In this document: piece by piece, positions 25,638-56,877 of the stretch
Layout: every line of letters starts with the position of its first letter
Position numbering within the stretch: position 1 is the stretch's first letter
Assembly: GCA_016933965.1 (NCBI GenBank)
Contig: JAFGTS010000040.1
Coordinates: 1 to 64,000 of the forward strand
Direction: 5' to 3'
DNA length: 64,000 nt
Source: Deltaproteobacteria bacterium
GTDB taxonomy: Bacteria > Desulfobacterota > Syntrophia > Syntrophales > UBA2210
Notes under the pieces: generated by a model
What the model was told of the DNA's origin: nothing
Database searches by the model: none
Seen by the model: the letters and a program-made list of their open reading frames with translations, nothing else
Made by a program: the position numbers and the translations under genes

Positions 25638-26714
25638 TCACTTCCTGGTCGCGCTCGCGTAGACCCAGGGGGAGCAGTAGGAAGGTATGAAGGTGCTGGA
25701 AAAGGTCACATCCGAGAAATGTTTCGTCAGGATCCGTTCCGAGATTTCCCGTGTCTCATGGTCGTGACCCGAGCAGCATTGCGCAGATAAGGCACCTCCC
25801 TGTTTCAGGGCCTTTGACGTTTTCCCGAAGATCAGATCGAGATACTCTTCACGATCCATGTCGATAAAAGCTTCCGGGTGCATCGTCAGGTCATAAATAA
25901 GGGCATCGTAACGCCGGTCCTGATCAAGGAACCTGAATGCGTCGTCGTAGATAACCTCCGTCCGAGCGTCATCGAAGGCATTACCGCAGACCGCGCTCAA
26001 GTGGGTGCGGCAGGCCGTCACAACTTCTTCATCGATGTCGATCAGGGTCACCCGCGAGGGGTTCAGTTTCAGGACCTCCCGAAGCACCCCGCCGTCGCCG
26101 CCCCCAAGTATCGCGACATGGTCAAGGGACAGGCCCGGTTTCATAAGAGGCCTTACCATGCTTGAATTGTACAGATGGGCATCATGCTCGGCTATCTGGA
26201 GATCGTTGTCGAGAAAAAGCATCCTTCCGAAACTTTCATTTTCTATGATCAATATATCCTGGTACTTCGATTTCTTGCTGAATATCTCCCGTTCAATGTG
26301 GTAGCGGATATCGAAGCCCGCGGACCCGGTATCATCGGTTATCCAGTTGGTGTTGGTCACTTCTATGGGGTTTCCCCGGGATATTTCAGCTGTTCTCGTT
26401 GTTCGCGGGGCAAGGCGCTCCTTGAAGAATTCAAGTATTTTCAGGGAGCATCCTTCATTCCGGGAGCAGGTGAATATGTCGATGGATGCGTGGCGGGCTT
26501 CCGGGTAGGTATGGATAGCCACGTGCGATTCGCTGATGACGGCTATCGATGTGATTCCGATGGGGTCGTAACAGTGACTGTTGATGCTGATGAGGTCGAT
26601 ACCGGACCTGCCGATGCCGTCACGCAGGACCTGTTCGATGGCTTCCCGGTCGTTAATGATGTCCTTGGAGCAATTGAAGAATTCGGCGACGAGCTGTGTA
26701 CCCGTGGGCTTCAT
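25638..26714 (-). CDS. speDE: Fused S-adenosylmethionine decarboxylase / aminopropyltransferase
   Basis: 358 residues, two enzymes in one chain. Residues 1-115 are a prokaryotic AdoMet decarboxylase. SESH at 61-64 followed by IHTYPE is the self-cleavage site; S63 would become the pyruvoyl group. Residues about 125-355 are a spermidine-synthase-type domain with GGGDGGVLREVLK, the decarboxylated-AdoMet site. Together they would make decarboxylated AdoMet and transfer its aminopropyl group to a diamine. The amine site is atypical: the usual YHE reads YNS in HDAHLYNSS, and the D-S/T-S/T-D-P loop reads DLTMHP. The acceptor may therefore not be putrescine. The leader carries stacked hairpins (26730-26790) and a good promoter (26847-26874). 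RBS GGAGG at 26721-26725. Confidence 0.88.
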   Translation of the reverse strand: MKPTGTQLVAEFFNCSKDIINDREAIEQVLRDGIGRSGIDLISINSHCYDPIGITSIAVISESHVAIHTYPEARHASIDIFTCSRNEGCSLKILEFFKERLAPRTTRTAEISRGNPIEVTNTNWITDDTGSAGFDIRYHIEREIFSKKSKYQDILIIENESFGRMLFLDNDLQIAEHDAHLYNSSMVRPLMKPGLSLDHVAILGGGDGGVLREVLKLNPSRVTLIDIDEEVVTACRTHLSAVCGNAFDDARTEVIYDDAFRFLDQDRRYDALIYDLTMHPEAFIDMDREEYLDLIFGKTSKALKQGGALSAQCCSGHDHETREISERILTKHFSDVTFSSTFIPSYCSPWVYASATRK

Positions 26715-48506: not shown

Positions 48507-50378
48507 ATGAAAGAAAACCTGTACGCACCTAAACCCTGGTTGAATTTCTATAAGAAACTGGGAATTCCCGAAACCATGGAGCCCTATCCTGAAATACCCC
48601 TTCATCAACTGCTCGACGATACCGCCCGGGAACATCCGGACAGCACTGCCATTATTTACATGGATGGTGAGATCACCTTCGGGCGTCTGAAAAAGGAAAC
48701 GGAGAAACTCGCAGCGGCCCTTGCAGGCCTGGGTGTCAGGAAAGGTGAAACGGTTACCATACTCCTTCCCACATCAGCCCAGTTCGCCATATCCATCTGG
48801 GGCATCAGCAGAACGGGAGCGACACAGCTCTGGGCGAGCACCATGCTCAAGGAAATGGAATTGATCGATCTTCTCAACCAGACGGGCTCTAAAACTATCA
48901 TCACCCTTGATACGAATCTGGATATGATACGTGTGATCAAGGCTCGCACGAACCTGAAACATGTCATCATAACAGCCCTTGATGATTACTCGGCCACAGA
49001 AAGACCGCTGGGTGAGGACATCGAAGGGGTTTTCCGGTTCAGAAAGCTCATAGCCGACCATCCCTCCGTTCCTCCCCGGGTGGATATCGATCCAAAGAAT
49101 GATTGCGCCCTTCTGAGATTCACCGGAGGGGCCACAGGAATTCCCAAGGGTGTCATGTCAAGCCACTTCAATCTGACCGCGAACACCAGGCAGATCCAGG
49201 GAATGCTGCCTATCATCGGGGCGGTGAAAGGGAAGAACCTCGTCACCATCGTTCCCCTGTTGATGTTCCATTTGGGTGGGTTCACCTATATCTACATGAC
49301 GGCGCTCGGCCTTACCCAGATACTGCTGTCCGACAACCGGGATTACGAGAGCATAGTAAATATGATGAATACCTATCGACCGTTCCTGTCCGCCCTCGTT
49401 CCGGCGCAGTGGATGAAGGTTTCCGCGGATAAGCGGCTCACACACACGCCGTTGCTTGGATTATCAGGGGCGGCGCCGCTTCCCTCGGACGTTACCAGGG
49501 AGATCGAAACGGAAAGAGGGGGTGTCGTCACGGACGTGTACGGGCAGTCTGAGGCCAACTGCCTGGTTACGGCAAACCTCTCAATTGCGGCCAAGCTCCT
49601 GCCCGGAGGCGATCGATCGCTCGTGTGGGTCGGTCGAACCATGCCGATGGCCGTAAAAGTGCTGCCCCATCTGATCGACTTCGCGCAATCCCGGCCGGGA
49701 AGGATGATCGTAACGCTCCTGAAGCCGATATTTTTGCCGCTCCTGAAGAGAGGGGTGAAAAAGAAAGCGATGAGCGGGAAAAAGGTTCGCGGCTTCAAGG
49801 AAGGTGTCGGCACCCCCCTCCCGGATACCGATGTGAAGCTCCTGGATGTCACAACTGGAAAGGAAGTTGGAATAGGAGAGCCGGGAGAGCTCTTCTATCG
49901 GGGACCCCAGCTTATGATGGGCTATTTCCCGGAAACTGGCAGCGGCCTTACAGAGGACGGTTATCTGGGAAGCGGCGATGTTGCCATTATGGACGAGGAC
50001 GGATTTTTCCGGATCGTCGACAGAACGAAGGATATGATCAATGTGGGGGGGTTCAAGGTTTACACAGAGGTCCTTGATGAAGCCCTGCGCAGGCATCCTT
50101 CCGTCTTTCTGGCCGGCTGTGTCGGTGTTCCTGACCCGGCGCGGCCGGGAAGTGAAATTGTAAAGGCGTTCATTCAGCTGAAAGAGGGGGAAGTCCCGCG
50201 ACCGGACCTGGAAAAAGAACTGACGGCCCTGGTGGAGAAGTCACTGTCCGCCTACTACAAACCCAAAATATATGTCTTCCTTGATGAGATCCCCCTCTCC
50301 AACGTGGACAAGGTCAACAAGCTCGCTCTCAGGGAGATGACGGGTAACCACGGGGCCGGTCAGATCCCGAAATCCTGA
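48507..50378 (+). CDS. AMP-dependent acyl-CoA ligase (second of the cassette)
   Basis: 623 residues. FTGGATGIPKGVMSSH (about 205-220) is the phosphate loop. The adenylate site is DVYGQSEANCLV, followed by GSGDVAIMDEDGFFRIVDRTKDMINVGGFKVYTEVLDEAL. The C-terminal NVDKVNKLALRE carries the lysine where GK is usual. A 65-residue insertion (about 375-430; PMAVKVLPHLIDFAQSRPGRMIVTLLKPIFLPLLKRG) may contact the membrane. It starts 29 bases after the dehydrogenase stop, so the two are co-transcribed. Substrate unknown; it differs enough from the ligase at 45378 that the two probably act on different acids. Confidence 0.88.
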   Translation: MKENLYAPKPWLNFYKKLGIPETMEPYPEIPLHQLLDDTAREHPDSTAIIYMDGEITFGRLKKETEKLAAALAGLGVRKGETVTILLPTSAQFAISIWGISRTGATQLWASTMLKEMELIDLLNQTGSKTIITLDTNLDMIRVIKARTNLKHVIITALDDYSATERPLGEDIEGVFRFRKLIADHPSVPPRVDIDPKNDCALLRFTGGATGIPKGVMSSHFNLTANTRQIQGMLPIIGAVKGKNLVTIVPLLMFHLGGFTYIYMTALGLTQILLSDNRDYESIVNMMNTYRPFLSALVPAQWMKVSADKRLTHTPLLGLSGAAPLPSDVTREIETERGGVVTDVYGQSEANCLVTANLSIAAKLLPGGDRSLVWVGRTMPMAVKVLPHLIDFAQSRPGRMIVTLLKPIFLPLLKRGVKKKAMSGKKVRGFKEGVGTPLPDTDVKLLDVTTGKEVGIGEPGELFYRGPQLMMGYFPETGSGLTEDGYLGSGDVAIMDEDGFFRIVDRTKDMINVGGFKVYTEVLDEALRRHPSVFLAGCVGVPDPARPGSEIVKAFIQLKEGEVPRPDLEKELTALVEKSLSAYYKPKIYVFLDEIPLSNVDKVNKLALREMTGNHGAGQIPKS

Positions 50379-51715: not shown

Positions 51716-52780
51716 TTATTCGGTGGGCTTTTGATTTTGATCTGAACTTGATTCACTCTTTCCATCGAGGGCTTTCAGACGTTCCTGGTGCCCCTTAATA
51801 GTTTCCTTAATCCGTATCTTGTCATCTTCAGGCGCCTCCTTTAATGCGGCTTCGAGTTCTTCAATATTTTTAACCAGACTCTTTTTCTCATTTTCGGTTC
51901 TTTCAGCTTGCTCAGCCTTGTCAAACGCGATCTCCTCCGCATTTATACTCCCTTTAGCTGATGTCACGGCAACCGAAACCGGAACGATTTTCTGATCATC
52001 ACCCATCCGTCTTTGGATCATAATAGTTGGCGACATGATTTCGATACCTTGCTCATGCAGCGTATCCAATATTGACTGATAGAGGTTTGAGCGAACCGAT
52101 ATCATTTTTTTAACTTCCGTTAATAAACCAGCTACGCGGTATTCAACTGAATAATTACCAAGATCTAAAATGTGTACAAACGGTTCTTCGAGCCCACTTT
52201 TTTCGGCAGCTTGTATGAGAAGAGATTCGACCAGAGAATGGTGAACATCGTATCCTAAAGACAGAGAAGCCGAGATTATTGTTCCCGAGCTGCGGATTGT
52301 GGTGACCGCATTTTTGATCAGGTAAGTATTGGAAAGCGAAATGAGCTCACGCATTTCGGTTTGAATCTCAGTATCGAACAACCCTCGCTCCGAAACGCGT
52401 CCGAAATGATCGCCTACACGAATAAAATCACCAGTCCGAAACGGTTTTGTTATTCGAAGGACTATACCAGCCATCAGGTTGGATACAATGTTCGTTGACG
52501 AAAACGCAATGACACCTGAAATAAGAATCCCGATCAGTCCTATCAATTGGTTGCGGGAGCTTTCGCTTATCGGTAAAGCAAGAATTATGGTAAGAAGTCC
52601 TCCAAGAGTCAGCCCAAGCAAAATCATATGCCGGGGGAACTTCCGCTCATTGCCGAGATCAGGGTGCTTTCCGATAAGAAACCAATGTCCGGCTCGAAGA
52701 ATTATACATACCCCTATGACCGTTAATAAGGCTGGTAAAAAAGTTATTAACTCATGCACTAAATTCTCTGATTCCAGCAT
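51716..52780 (-). CDS. Small-conductance mechanosensitive channel (MscS family)
   Basis: 354 residues. Three membrane segments (about 10-95) end in the pore helix region (GVIAFSSTNIVSNLMAGIVLRITKPFRTGDFIRVGDHFGRVSERGLF), the MscS core. A beta-domain follows (about 120-260), with a C-terminal coiled coil (about 290-335) rich in Glu/Lys. It releases solutes on hypo-osmotic shock. The first TM pair is shorter than in E. coli MscS, and the C-terminal coiled-coil tail is longer. Downstream (51650) lies the NapH-like gene, 65 bases away. AT-rich upstream region. Confidence 0.88.
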   Translation of the reverse strand: MLESENLVHELITFLPALLTVIGVCIILRAGHWFLIGKHPDLGNERKFPRHMILLGLTLGGLLTIILALPISESSRNQLIGLIGILISGVIAFSSTNIVSNLMAGIVLRITKPFRTGDFIRVGDHFGRVSERGLFDTEIQTEMRELISLSNTYLIKNAVTTIRSSGTIISASLSLGYDVHHSLVESLLIQAAEKSGLEEPFVHILDLGNYSVEYRVAGLLTEVKKMISVRSNLYQSILDTLHEQGIEIMSPTIMIQRRMGDDQKIVPVSVAVTSAKGSINAEEIAFDKAEQAERTENEKKSLVKNIEELEAALKEAPEDDKIRIKETIKGHQERLKALDGKSESSSDQNQKPTE

Positions 52781-53138: not shown

Positions 53139-54929
53139 TCATAGAGGTTTCTTTGCCTGCGAAGAGCGGCCCTTTCTCTGGGAGGGAGGAATACCATGGA
53201 ACCCCTCCCAAAGACCCATGAAAAATCGGCCGGCATTTGAACCCAGCGATCGAGAGCGATAACCGCCCTCTTGAACGATGATTGTCGGAAGCCCGAGCGT
53301 TCCGATCAAACGTCCATTTTCATAGAAATCAGTTGTCGAAAGATTCCATGTTCCAGTCGGATCTCCTTTGGCCGTATCAAGACCGAAGGCGACAAGCAGA
53401 AAGGTCGCCCGAAACCGGCTGATTCTGTGAAGCGCCTTTCGCAGGACCCTGGTGTAGGTTGCGGCATCGATCTTCTCAGGGAGAGGGTAATTGATATTAA
53501 AGCCTTCTCCGGAGTCTTCACCGCGCTCATTGCGGAAGCCACTAAAGTAGGGATATGCTGAACGAGGATGACCGTGAATTGAAATCGTCAGGACGTCCTG
53601 CCGCTCATAGAAGATGTCCTGTGTCCCGTTCCCGTGATGGTAATCGATGTCAAGAACGGCGACCTTCCCATACCGGCTGAGGAAATGTGCCGCCACAGCC
53701 GCTGAATTGAAGTAGCAGAAACCGCCGAACGCGTTTCTTTCTGCGTGGTGTCCCGGTGGGCGGACCAGGGCATAGGCAAGGCGGTAGCCATCAAGAATTG
53801 CCTGGGCCACTGTAAGCGCGCAATCAACAGCCCGTTTTGCCGCCAGGTAGGCGTTCCGGTTCAATGGCGTAAAGGTATCAATGCAATAATAGCCCGCCCG
53901 GACGGGCATTTCCCGGGGAGGATGTGCCTTGTTACGGATGGGAAACACATATGGGTAAACGGATATTCCCGGTTGCATCTGCGAACACATTCGCTTGAAA
54001 TATTCCACATAGTGGGTGTTGTGGATCGCCTTGATATTTTTTTCCGGGAAGTGACGAGGTGTCATTCTGTCAAAGAGATCCATTCCTTCGATGCCTTCCA
54101 GTATCCGCTGAATCCGGGCTGGTGCTTCAACATACCCCCGTTCGTGAACGTGGTGGATATCATGCTTGTCGTTCACGACAAGGGCGATCCTCTTTTCCAT
54201 GGAGCGGGTGGTTTGTACGGAGAACGCCGGCCTCGTCACAGTATATCGGGGCGGGCGCAACCGGACGGGATCATCCGTTACTGAGGATTCAACCATTTCA
54301 ATATAGCCCGGTGGGCAGGAGTCTCCATATTTCCTTTTCAGAATAGCCCGGATAACATGGCGCAGTATGTCCCGCGAGAGACTTACATTCCTTCCGAGGG
54401 GGTCGAAAACAAGATAGGGCGGACAGTCATGCTCAGGTTTGAAAGGTGTTTCATAGGCCGTGTTGATAATCGGATATGCTCCGTATTGCTCATAGAACTT
54501 GAGGCGTTTCCGGTTCTGCTTCAATACTTGCTTGTCACGGCACAGATGTTTTTCGTCGGGCAGACATTCAAAAAAGAGTCCCTCGTTGGTCAACTTTGCC
54601 GCCTCTTCCCGCACACGATCATAGAGGGCTCCCCCGACACCGCGACCGGCTCGTTCCGGCTCTATCGAGAGATAATCAAGATAACAGAACCCCAGATCGG
54701 GAGCGTGCTGCATCAGGGCGAAGCCTTTCACATTCCCCTGGGAATCTTCGGCGATGAAGATGATTGAGCGGAAACGATATTTCAGGGGATTTTTTAACTG
54801 GTGCGGGAGGCGCGCGATGTCCTTTTCATCGAGTTCGTTGAACTGATTTCTCAGGATGGCCTGTACCTGCACGATCGCTTCTCGGTCACGGGGAAGCGTG
54901 TCGTCATAAATGCGCCGGATACGAAACAT
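53139..54929 (-). CDS. GNAT acetyltransferase fused to an acetylpolyamine amidohydrolase/HDAC-type deacetylase
   Basis: 596 residues from the ATG at 54929 (GGAGG nine bases upstream). Residues 1-170 are a GNAT fold: YLDYLSIEPERAGRGVGGALYDRVREEA holds the acetyl-CoA R-x-x-G-x-G loop (93-100). A linker (170-245) precedes a complete arginase-fold deacetylase. Its His dyad is H394-H395 (PPGHHAERNAFGG), zinc ligands D429 and H431 (DIDYHHGNG) and D518 (FGLDTAKGDPTG), and the catalytic Tyr Y557 (QEGGY). GYYCIDTFTPLNRNAYLAAKRAVD is the acetylpolyamine-amidohydrolase style. Acetyl-transfer and deacetylation are thus joined. Targets could be acetylated polyamines or protein lysines. Single gene, between mscS and the beta-helix gene. 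Confidence 0.9.
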   Translation of the reverse strand: MFRIRRIYDDTLPRDREAIVQVQAILRNQFNELDEKDIARLPHQLKNPLKYRFRSIIFIAEDSQGNVKGFALMQHAPDLGFCYLDYLSIEPERAGRGVGGALYDRVREEAAKLTNEGLFFECLPDEKHLCRDKQVLKQNRKRLKFYEQYGAYPIINTAYETPFKPEHDCPPYLVFDPLGRNVSLSRDILRHVIRAILKRKYGDSCPPGYIEMVESSVTDDPVRLRPPRYTVTRPAFSVQTTRSMEKRIALVVNDKHDIHHVHERGYVEAPARIQRILEGIEGMDLFDRMTPRHFPEKNIKAIHNTHYVEYFKRMCSQMQPGISVYPYVFPIRNKAHPPREMPVRAGYYCIDTFTPLNRNAYLAAKRAVDCALTVAQAILDGYRLAYALVRPPGHHAERNAFGGFCYFNSAAVAAHFLSRYGKVAVLDIDYHHGNGTQDIFYERQDVLTISIHGHPRSAYPYFSGFRNERGEDSGEGFNINYPLPEKIDAATYTRVLRKALHRISRFRATFLLVAFGLDTAKGDPTGTWNLSTTDFYENGRLIGTLGLPTIIVQEGGYRSRSLGSNAGRFFMGLWEGFHGIPPSQRKGRSSQAKKPL

Positions 54930-55131
54930 AAAGGAATACCTCCAGTGATGAAAGTAAGAATATCATACTGTTGGTCACTGTGGTATCTTTTGTTTAACTT
55001 CCCCAGATACTTCAACCTCATGTTAAATCAGAGGCCTGCAATATTTTGGCAATTCACAACTTCATTTCGATAGGGAATACATCCCTCTCCCCCGGATCAA
55101 GGATCTCAGATGAGAATGGTTCATCCATGTC

Positions 55132-56877
55132 CTATGGAGCGATATAAGACGTCCCATAGTCGTTGTTGAACAGGGTGTTCGGCTGTGCCTCAATATCAAT
55201 GTCGAAATACCATGGCGTCATGTCAGCATAATATTTGTCGAGCGCATTGTTATTGAGCAACAGGTTGTTATGGATGTCATTATTCACGCAATTCAAACCA
55301 ATGTAGAGGCCATGCATGCCATTATTCATGGCGTTGTTGTCCGCTACCACGTTGTTACTGGCGGTTTTGTCGGTAAGCCCAACGTAATCCAGACGGATAC
55401 CTGAATACCCGTTATTATTGGATGTGTTATATGCGATTATATTGGAGCTGCACCAGACACCGATTCCCTCGCCACCATTATTGTTTGTACCGTTGTTGGC
55501 TATTCTTACGTTCTGTGAGTCATTTACATCGATGCCGTCATAGCTGTTCTCCTGCACTGTGTTATAGGTAACGGTACAGCCGTTAGGAGTATCGGATACA
55601 ACAGAGGATACGTAAATTCCGGTGCCATTATTTGTAACCGTGTTACTGTCCGCAAAGCTGTCTGTAAGGTAGTGGAACTTTATCCCCGTGTTCGTACAAT
55701 TCGTTACGGTGTTGTCGGAAATGGTAATACCGTTCGAGGCATAGGTGCCGTTGCTTATGCCGATGTAACAATTTTCAACCGTATTGTTTTCAATAACAAC
55801 GTTGGAACAACCGTCGATGCTGATACCGGTATAATCATTTGCCAGCGTACAGTCCCGGACAGTCCCGTTGCTCAACAGGGTCAATGAGATCCCGCATCCG
55901 TAAGTATCAGCGTTCGACACACTGCAGTTTTTTATCTCAAAATATTTCGAGGTATTTCCAACAGCTATCCCCACCTTGATATATGGCCAGACGCTGGTGT
56001 CACAAGAGGAGGCGTCTATTGTCCATCCCTCTATGATATAGGGGTCGGACTGAGTTCCCGAGCCACTGACCACTCCATTTGCCGCGGTAAATTCATCATT
56101 AGAAGAGATACGGATCGTGCCGCCGGTATAGATTCCTCCCGACGTCACCGTGAGGGTCGTGCTTCCTGATACATCCCCCAGGGTAGCGGTAATTGTTGTC
56201 GTACCTTCGGCAAGTGCGGCAGCATTACCATCGTTCCCATCGATGGTTGCTACCGATGTATTTGACGAACTCCAGGCAACCTCCGCTGATATGTTGTTGG
56301 TTGAACTGTTCGAGTAGGTGCCGATAGCTGTAAATTGCTGGGTGAATCCTACGAAAATGCCCGGATTGGCAGGTGTCACTGCAATGGAAACAAGTGTAAC
56401 GGGAGTGCCGGATTGGATCCCTGTCACTGTAAATGTTCCATCGCTGTTTATCGTAAGTTCATAGGTCCATCCGCTTTTTTCATCGACATATTCCCATGTG
56501 CCTGTAATATCGCCAACAGTACCGCTGTCACGTGTCCATATCATGTCATCGGTATCATCTTCACCGACCCATTCCATCGCTGTAGCACCAATGGATGTGA
56601 CAGTATATTCTTCAACTCCGACCTGTGGACCTTCGTCATCGGCAAAATTGCTTGAAGTGAAATGTATGGTGAGCGTATCTGCGACTAACGCATATGATCC
56701 ACTCGCTGTACAGATCGTTGTATCACCGTTACCGCCATCACCATTACCACCACCACCTTCACTACCACCGCCACCGCCGCCACCGGTGCCGATAATTGTC
56801 AGCAAACCGAGAATCGTGATGCAGACCACAACAAAATAACGAGCCGTGTTAAACATACTTTTTCTCTTTGCCCTCAT
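55132..56877 (-). CDS. Secreted right-handed beta-helix protein with a Big-type domain
   Basis: 581 residues from the ATG at 56877 (GGGGAGG upstream). A signal-like segment (ARYFVVVCITILGLLTIIGT) ends in a Gly-rich stretch (about 30-55). Residues about 56-155 form a beta-rich domain. Residues about 160-245 form an Ig-like Big-type domain (VTLVSIAVTPANPGIFVGFTQQF, SSSNTSVATI, EGTTTITATLG). From about 255 on is a NosD/parallel beta-helix with many Asn-rich rungs (NNTVENCYIG, NTVTNNGTGIYV, NNGGEGIGVWCSSNIIAYNTSNNNG). It probably lies on the cell surface or outside, binding polysaccharide. No lipobox Cys follows the signal. Single gene. Confidence 0.82.
   Translation of the reverse strand: MRAKRKSMFNTARYFVVVCITILGLLTIIGTGGGGGGGSEGGGGNGDGGNGDTTICTASGSYALVADTLTIHFTSSNFADDEGPQVGVEEYTVTSIGATAMEWVGEDDTDDMIWTRDSGTVGDITGTWEYVDEKSGWTYELTINSDGTFTVTGIQSGTPVTLVSIAVTPANPGIFVGFTQQFTAIGTYSNSSTNNISAEVAWSSSNTSVATIDGNDGNAAALAEGTTTITATLGDVSGSTTLTVTSGGIYTGGTIRISSNDEFTAANGVVSGSGTQSDPYIIEGWTIDASSCDTSVWPYIKVGIAVGNTSKYFEIKNCSVSNADTYGCGISLTLLSNGTVRDCTLANDYTGISIDGCSNVVIENNTVENCYIGISNGTYASNGITISDNTVTNCTNTGIKFHYLTDSFADSNTVTNNGTGIYVSSVVSDTPNGCTVTYNTVQENSYDGIDVNDSQNVRIANNGTNNNGGEGIGVWCSSNIIAYNTSNNNGYSGIRLDYVGLTDKTASNNVVADNNAMNNGMHGLYIGLNCVNNDIHNNLLLNNNALDKYYADMTPWYFDIDIEAQPNTLFNNDYGTSYIAP

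Follow-up and report, generated by a model that had tools for sequence, protein, structure and literature searches.

An acetyltransferase-deacetylase fusion protein that accompanies a KamA/ATP-grasp/GNAT gene set in two bacterial genome samples

A gene in the window (the whole stretch of 64,000 nucleotides analysed here) raises the question of why an enzyme that adds acetyl groups should be joined in one chain to an enzyme that removes them, and on which substrate the two would act. An earlier note, made from the sequence alone and without mention of the strand, had described complete GNAT and APAH/HDAC-type domains in a single 596-residue chain with no internal stop. Both the open reading frame and the Pfam analysis agree with that description. 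The frame at 53139-54929, which we place on the minus strand, starts with ATG, encodes 596 amino acids and contains no internal stops. Its features are as follows.

53139-54929, minus strand: complete GNAT-APAH fusion gene, 596 codons and a stop, with 85 full-length homologues
54939-54943, minus strand: Shine-Dalgarno sequence GGAGG, 9 bases 5′ of the fusion ATG
54402-54929, minus strand: N-terminal GNAT domain, residues 1-176 (Pfam, fold model and invariant residues)
54630-54653, minus strand: acetyl-CoA pyrophosphate loop R93-G100, with an invariant GxG
54195-54401, minus strand: linker, residues 177-245, with helices at 186-204 and 209-215 and then a poorly conserved stretch
53190-54194, minus strand: APAH/HDAC-type Zn amidohydrolase domain, residues 246-580 (Pfam, sequence and fold matches)
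53865-53957, minus strand: L2 loop, residues 325-355, matching the polyamine-specificity loop of APAHs
53745-53750, minus strand: catalytic His pair H394/H395, identical in 86/86 sequences
53637-53645, minus strand: Zn ligands D429 and H431, identical in 86/86
53352-53378, minus strand: Zn ligand D518 and the invariant DPTG (523-526), which stands where polyamine deacetylases have PIS
53259-53261, minus strand: catalytic Tyr Y557 (QEGGY), identical in 86/86

Pfam placed Hist_deacetyl at residues 267-569 (E 6e-75) and both Acetyltransf_7 (E 1.7e-7) and Acetyltransf_1 (E 1.8e-5) at about residues 51-150, all above their gathering scores, while no NCBIfam family matched the whole fusion protein. 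In a fold model both halves were of high confidence (mean pLDDT 87.6). The nearest PDB folds of the GNAT half (pLDDT 88.9) were GCN5/PCAF at ∼14% identity, and the best solved relatives of the APAH half, by sequence and by fold, were acetylpolyamine amidohydrolases at 36% identity. Its fold and its GxG acetyl-CoA loop identify the GNAT half as a GNAT acetyltransferase, and acetyl transfer is its predicted activity.

The database search suggested in the earlier note, for other proteins with both domains, brought the family to 86 full-length members: the additional 85 come from over 15 phyla and align with the query end to end. Active-site residues are kept in 86/86. The three objections raised there, a sequencing error, homologues that are always separate and inactive residues in one domain, do not apply. 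Full-length fusions (query residues 1 to ∼576, no stops) were present in five order-level relatives, and each of the 80 top-ranking loci kept from a scan of GTDB species genomes holds a full-length fusion, at identities of ∼56-78%. The records originate from Thermodesulfobacteriota, Pseudomonadota, Myxococcota, Spirochaetota, Chloroflexota, Bacteroidota, Planctomycetota, Acidobacteriota and others, and include the isolates Prolixibacter denitrificans, Pseudodesulfovibrio pelocollis and Dasania sp. A false joining of two genes by sequencing or assembly, to which we assign a negligible probability, was ruled out by these 85 uninterrupted fusions of the same length in independent assemblies, isolates included.

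Alignment of the fusion family showed that H394, H395, D429, H431, D518 and Y557, the residues named in the earlier note, are each identical in all 86 sequences. So are G97 and G99 of the acetyl-CoA loop and Y146, the Tyr of the F-Y-E-x-x-G motif and the usual general acid of GNATs; the invariant positions of the GNAT half are L84, G97, G99, E121, P124, D125, R142, F145, Y146, E147 and G150. In the APAH family the L2 loop shapes substrate access (PMC11532494). Its pattern in the fusions, YPYxFPxRN..PP..GYyCxDTFTP, is almost invariant, and R332 within it, equivalent to R95 of PsApaH, is found in 86/86. The partner of R95 in PsApaH, D163, is not retained, its position being the variable N399. 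The positions of MrApaH Glu106 and Glu117 are non-acidic in the fusions, the latter being an invariant Phe. Since the catalytic residues, the L2 loop and DPTG are invariant or nearly so, the alignment indicates that strong selection acts on both active sites. A PIS motif marks bacterial polyamine deacetylases (PMC11532494). Because PTG replaces it in 86/86 fusions, we file the deacetylase half, by prediction, as APAH-like (the cluster 4 type of classical Zn deacylase) and not as a polyamine deacetylase.

In a phylogenetic tree the fused APAH domains formed one clade (SH-aLRT 99) on a long stem, separate from the stand-alone APAHs. As judged from this single clade, the family arose by one fusion event and then specialised. 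Some members are three-domain GNAT-APAH-GNAT proteins of ∼750-817 amino acids (loci L050, L056, L058, L064, L071, L078, L086 and L089), whose C-terminal third domain resembles the stand-alone GNAT of the operon described below.

We clustered the neighbours of the 86 fusions and obtained one recurrent set, consisting of KamA, ATP-grasp 1, ATP-grasp 2, GNAT and the fusion. ATP-grasp ligase genes adjoin the fusion in 42 of the 86 loci, in most of them immediately 5′ of it and in the same orientation; KamA was detected by the fusion in 29 and a stand-alone GNAT in 20. Radical-SAM/LAM_C, Dala_Dala_lig_C and GNAT domains were confirmed in the operon proteins. The two ligases, both D-Ala-D-Ala-ligase-like ATP-grasp proteins, belong to two families whose order is fixed. 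Among the family models, those for the glutamate and arginine versions match the operon KamA less well than that for lysine 2,3-aminomutase, TIGR03820, which it matches at 471-480 bits, below the equivalog cut-off of 525. The Asp that precedes the GGGK loop is kept in 26/26 aligned KamA sequences. Antisense ORFs in G+C-rich loci (neighbour clusters C5 and C7) were judged spurious, and no known riboswitch or structured RNA was detected at gathering scores in nine operon loci and the window. In one locus (L114, G019:C123) ATP-grasp 2 and GNAT share a single 521-aa frame, and one ligase match (G102:C6:336368-337342) lies inside a frame reported open for 24,479 aa, which may reflect masked sequence or a gene of giant size. 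Neither GNAT-HDAC fusions nor KamA/ATP-grasp/GNAT clusters were described in the literature searched, which did not include the most relevant older review. The operon product appears undescribed, and the novelty of the operon is provisional.

The fusion is often encoded apart from this operon. In the genome of the window the complete KamA-ligase-ligase-GNAT set lies on another contig (C32, L094 7891-11725) than the fusion (C40). Among 38 genomes with an unlinked fusion, of which two duplicate relatives that had been counted before, the second ligase was found at E ≤ 1e-58 in 33; the other five, in which it was not clear, are MAGs of unstated completeness. On the tree of the fusions, 18 changes in linkage to the operon are seen. 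In 247 genomes of the phylum the fusion occurs in 26 and the second ligase in 93, and 26/26 fusion genomes, spanning 24 genera, have the ligase (hypergeometric 8e-13). In 198 Bacteroidales genomes the corresponding numbers are 9 and 32, with the ligase in 9/9 fusion genomes (P 3e-8); both P values overstate independence on account of shared ancestry of the genomes. Within both samples, then, the fusion occurs only alongside the pathway. The reverse does not hold: 67 of the 93 ligase genomes in the phylum sample lack the fusion, and in such genomes the operon ends right after GNAT. The dependence is thus one-sided, of the fusion on the pathway, which argues that the fusion modifies a product rather than builds it. 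Operons without the fusion are widespread (L109-L128). Several are followed by genes of 206 aa and 332 aa (L115, L117, L118, L121 and L122, with their start in L119 and L124) that by eye resemble a DUF47/PhoU-like protein and a phosphate transporter of the PiT type.

In the window the fusion stands alone, apart from its gene set and adjoining an MscS gene. Other genes mentioned here, in the window unless a locus is named, are the following.

51716-52780, minus strand: MscS mechanosensitive channel gene, on the strand of the fusion and 358 bp downstream
25638-26714, minus strand: speD-speE fusion of 358 aa, with the Pfam domains AdoMet_dc and Spermine_synth
L002 3387-3971, and also in L015 and L016: UPF0316 gene upstream of the fusion

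With a distance limit of 4 kb, 9 MscS hits were counted around the fusion against 0.42 expected, a ∼20-fold enrichment that was noticed post hoc; the proximity is also seen in other lineages, and the first seven of these genes are all MscS by Pfam. Derivatives of beta-lysine are osmoprotectants (PMC9337991). Together, beta-lysine chemistry and MscS proximity hint at a role in osmoadaptation. Upstream of the fusion in the window, 55132-56877 on the minus strand encodes a protein with Big_2 and NosD/beta-helix repeats that is predicted to lie at the surface, and in close relatives of this genome a UPF0316 (DUF5698/DUF2179) membrane protein gene lies directly 5′ of the fusion.

The genomic context points to a small molecule as the substrate, rather than polyamines or proteins. 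We tentatively favour a bifunctional N-acetyltransferase/deacetylase that controls whether a small amine from the KamA-ATPgrasp1-ATPgrasp2-GNAT pathway is acetylated, a reading that we hold with somewhat less than even confidence. KamA would form beta-lysine, and the two D-Ala-D-Ala-ligase-like enzymes would make amide bonds that incorporate it into a short product resembling a peptide, which the operon GNAT may acetylate. The GNAT half of the fusion would then acetylate a free terminal amine of the product and the APAH half would take this acetyl group off again, so that the cell could turn its product from charged to neutral and back. APAHs cleave groups of the kind that acetyl-beta-lysine carries at its omega-acetamidoalkyl end. 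Streptothricin acetyltransferase acetylates the beta-lysine moiety of streptothricin, and its match to the GNAT half (E 0.006) was treated as a hint. It is possible, though we are less confident of this, that the single chain puts acetyl on and takes it off a beta-lysine-containing peptide or compatible solute of the undescribed KamA/two-ligase/GNAT pathway in tune with the osmotic state. An obligatory protecting-group step is harder to reconcile with the optional presence of the fusion than a role as a switch or in recycling. Weighing against the favoured reading are the five MAGs with a fusion but no clear second ligase, the lack of a known riboswitch at the nine operon loci and the nearest fold being GCN5, which is compatible with a protein substrate as well.

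The strongest rival is sequential protection and deprotection in beta-lysine metabolism, with the two halves serving different steps of one route of synthesis or breakdown. The GNAT half would acetylate the epsilon-amine of beta-lysine, other enzymes would process the product and the APAH half would deacetylate it last. The classical Pseudomonas route passes via N6-acetyl-beta-lysine and 4-acetamidobutyrate. Gene sets resembling it are found on plasmids of Rhizobium and Roseateles (L172 2580-5880 and L173 4131-7967), where separate, overlapping GNAT and APAH genes lie beside an aminotransferase gene; the Roseateles plasmid (L173) also carries genes for a 3-keto-5-aminohexanoate-cleavage-type enzyme and an amino-acid transporter. 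Their gene content suggests that these sets serve the breakdown of an acetylated amino acid, for example beta-lysine. They have the same pairing of activities as the fusion, and their APAH is ∼40% identical to that of the fusion, but the genes are unfused and the GNAT belongs to an unrelated subfamily. Descent of the fusion's GNAT from the rhizobial stand-alone GNAT was not supported by sequence comparison. Moreover, no aminotransferase or cleavage enzyme recurs among the fusion neighbours, and the 67 genomes with the KamA-ligase set alone indicate that the fusion is not obligatory for synthesis. We regard this route as doubtful.

The earlier note had proposed that the protein could set the acetylation level of one substrate pool, such as polyamines or a DNA-binding protein. 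What is borne out is that the protein is a genuine fusion, conserved, in which the site that adds acetyl and the site that removes it are both intact; neither of the two substrates is supported. The recurrent partner of the fusion, beside it or at another place in the genome, is the set of KamA, two ATP-grasp ligases and GNAT. A switch of protein lysine acetylation, with a GCN5-like writer and an HDAC-like eraser whose target might be an enzyme of the pathway or an acyl-CoA synthetase, is improbable. The GCN5/PCAF folds nearest to the GNAT half would suit it, although that match is of ∼14% identity and the PDB contains a disproportionate number of GCN5 structures. Deacetylation of a lysine peptide is also within the reach of a cluster 4 APAH (PMC11532494), but the deacetylases closest to the fusion are APAHs that act on small molecules rather than AcuC. 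A gene three genes away (48507-50378) reads from its translation as acyl-CoA synthetase-like; such genes are not recurrent by the fusion. In Bacillus, AcuA (GNAT) and AcuC (HDAC) likewise pair an acetyltransferase with a classical deacetylase, but they are encoded by separate genes, AcuC belongs to cluster 2c (PMC11532494) and their target is acetyl-CoA synthetase. When likeness to AcuC and adjacency of acuB/acs were tested, the fusion deacetylase was closest to APAH and the neighbours differed. Polyamine acetylation homeostasis is the least likely of the substrate alternatives, and we consider it very improbable despite the APAH match, the retained L2-loop Arg and the speDE fusion, which is present in the window as the earlier note had reported. 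That gene lies ∼26 kb from the GNAT-APAH gene with no operon link, no polyamine gene recurs by the fusion, and PTG invariantly takes the place of PIS. The non-acidic Glu106 and Glu117 positions weigh weakly against polyamines; we dropped them as proof because PsApaH, which lacks both residues, acts on polyamines, so that residue rules for this activity are not strict.

Several known systems resemble parts of this one. The cluster 4 APAHs (PsApaH 9gkz, msAPAH 6phr and MrApaH 3q9b) share the catalytic residues and the L2-loop Arg with the fusion at the domain identity given above; the fusion differs in its attached GNAT, PTG motif, own clade and tie to KamA and ATP-grasp genes. The ablA/ablB route to N-epsilon-acetyl-beta-lysine also combines a KamA-type aminomutase with an acetyltransferase in an osmolyte context, but has neither ATP-grasp ligases nor a deacetylase, and the ablB model matched neither the fusion GNAT nor the operon GNAT. 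The NAGGN osmolyte system, a GNAT-ATP-grasp ligase, makes an acetyl-capped small peptide with an ATP-grasp ligase. In this it is like the operon, but it lacks KamA and a deacetylase, and the operon proteins did not match the NAGGN model.

The fusion offers a way into a widespread gene set, of a lysine 2,3-aminomutase, two amino-acid ligases and a GNAT, whose product is apparently undescribed, and its strict dependence on that set predicts the class of its substrate. If the favoured reading is true, a single enzyme would unite two opposing activities on a small molecule, acetyl transfer and deacetylation, a combination that is rare.
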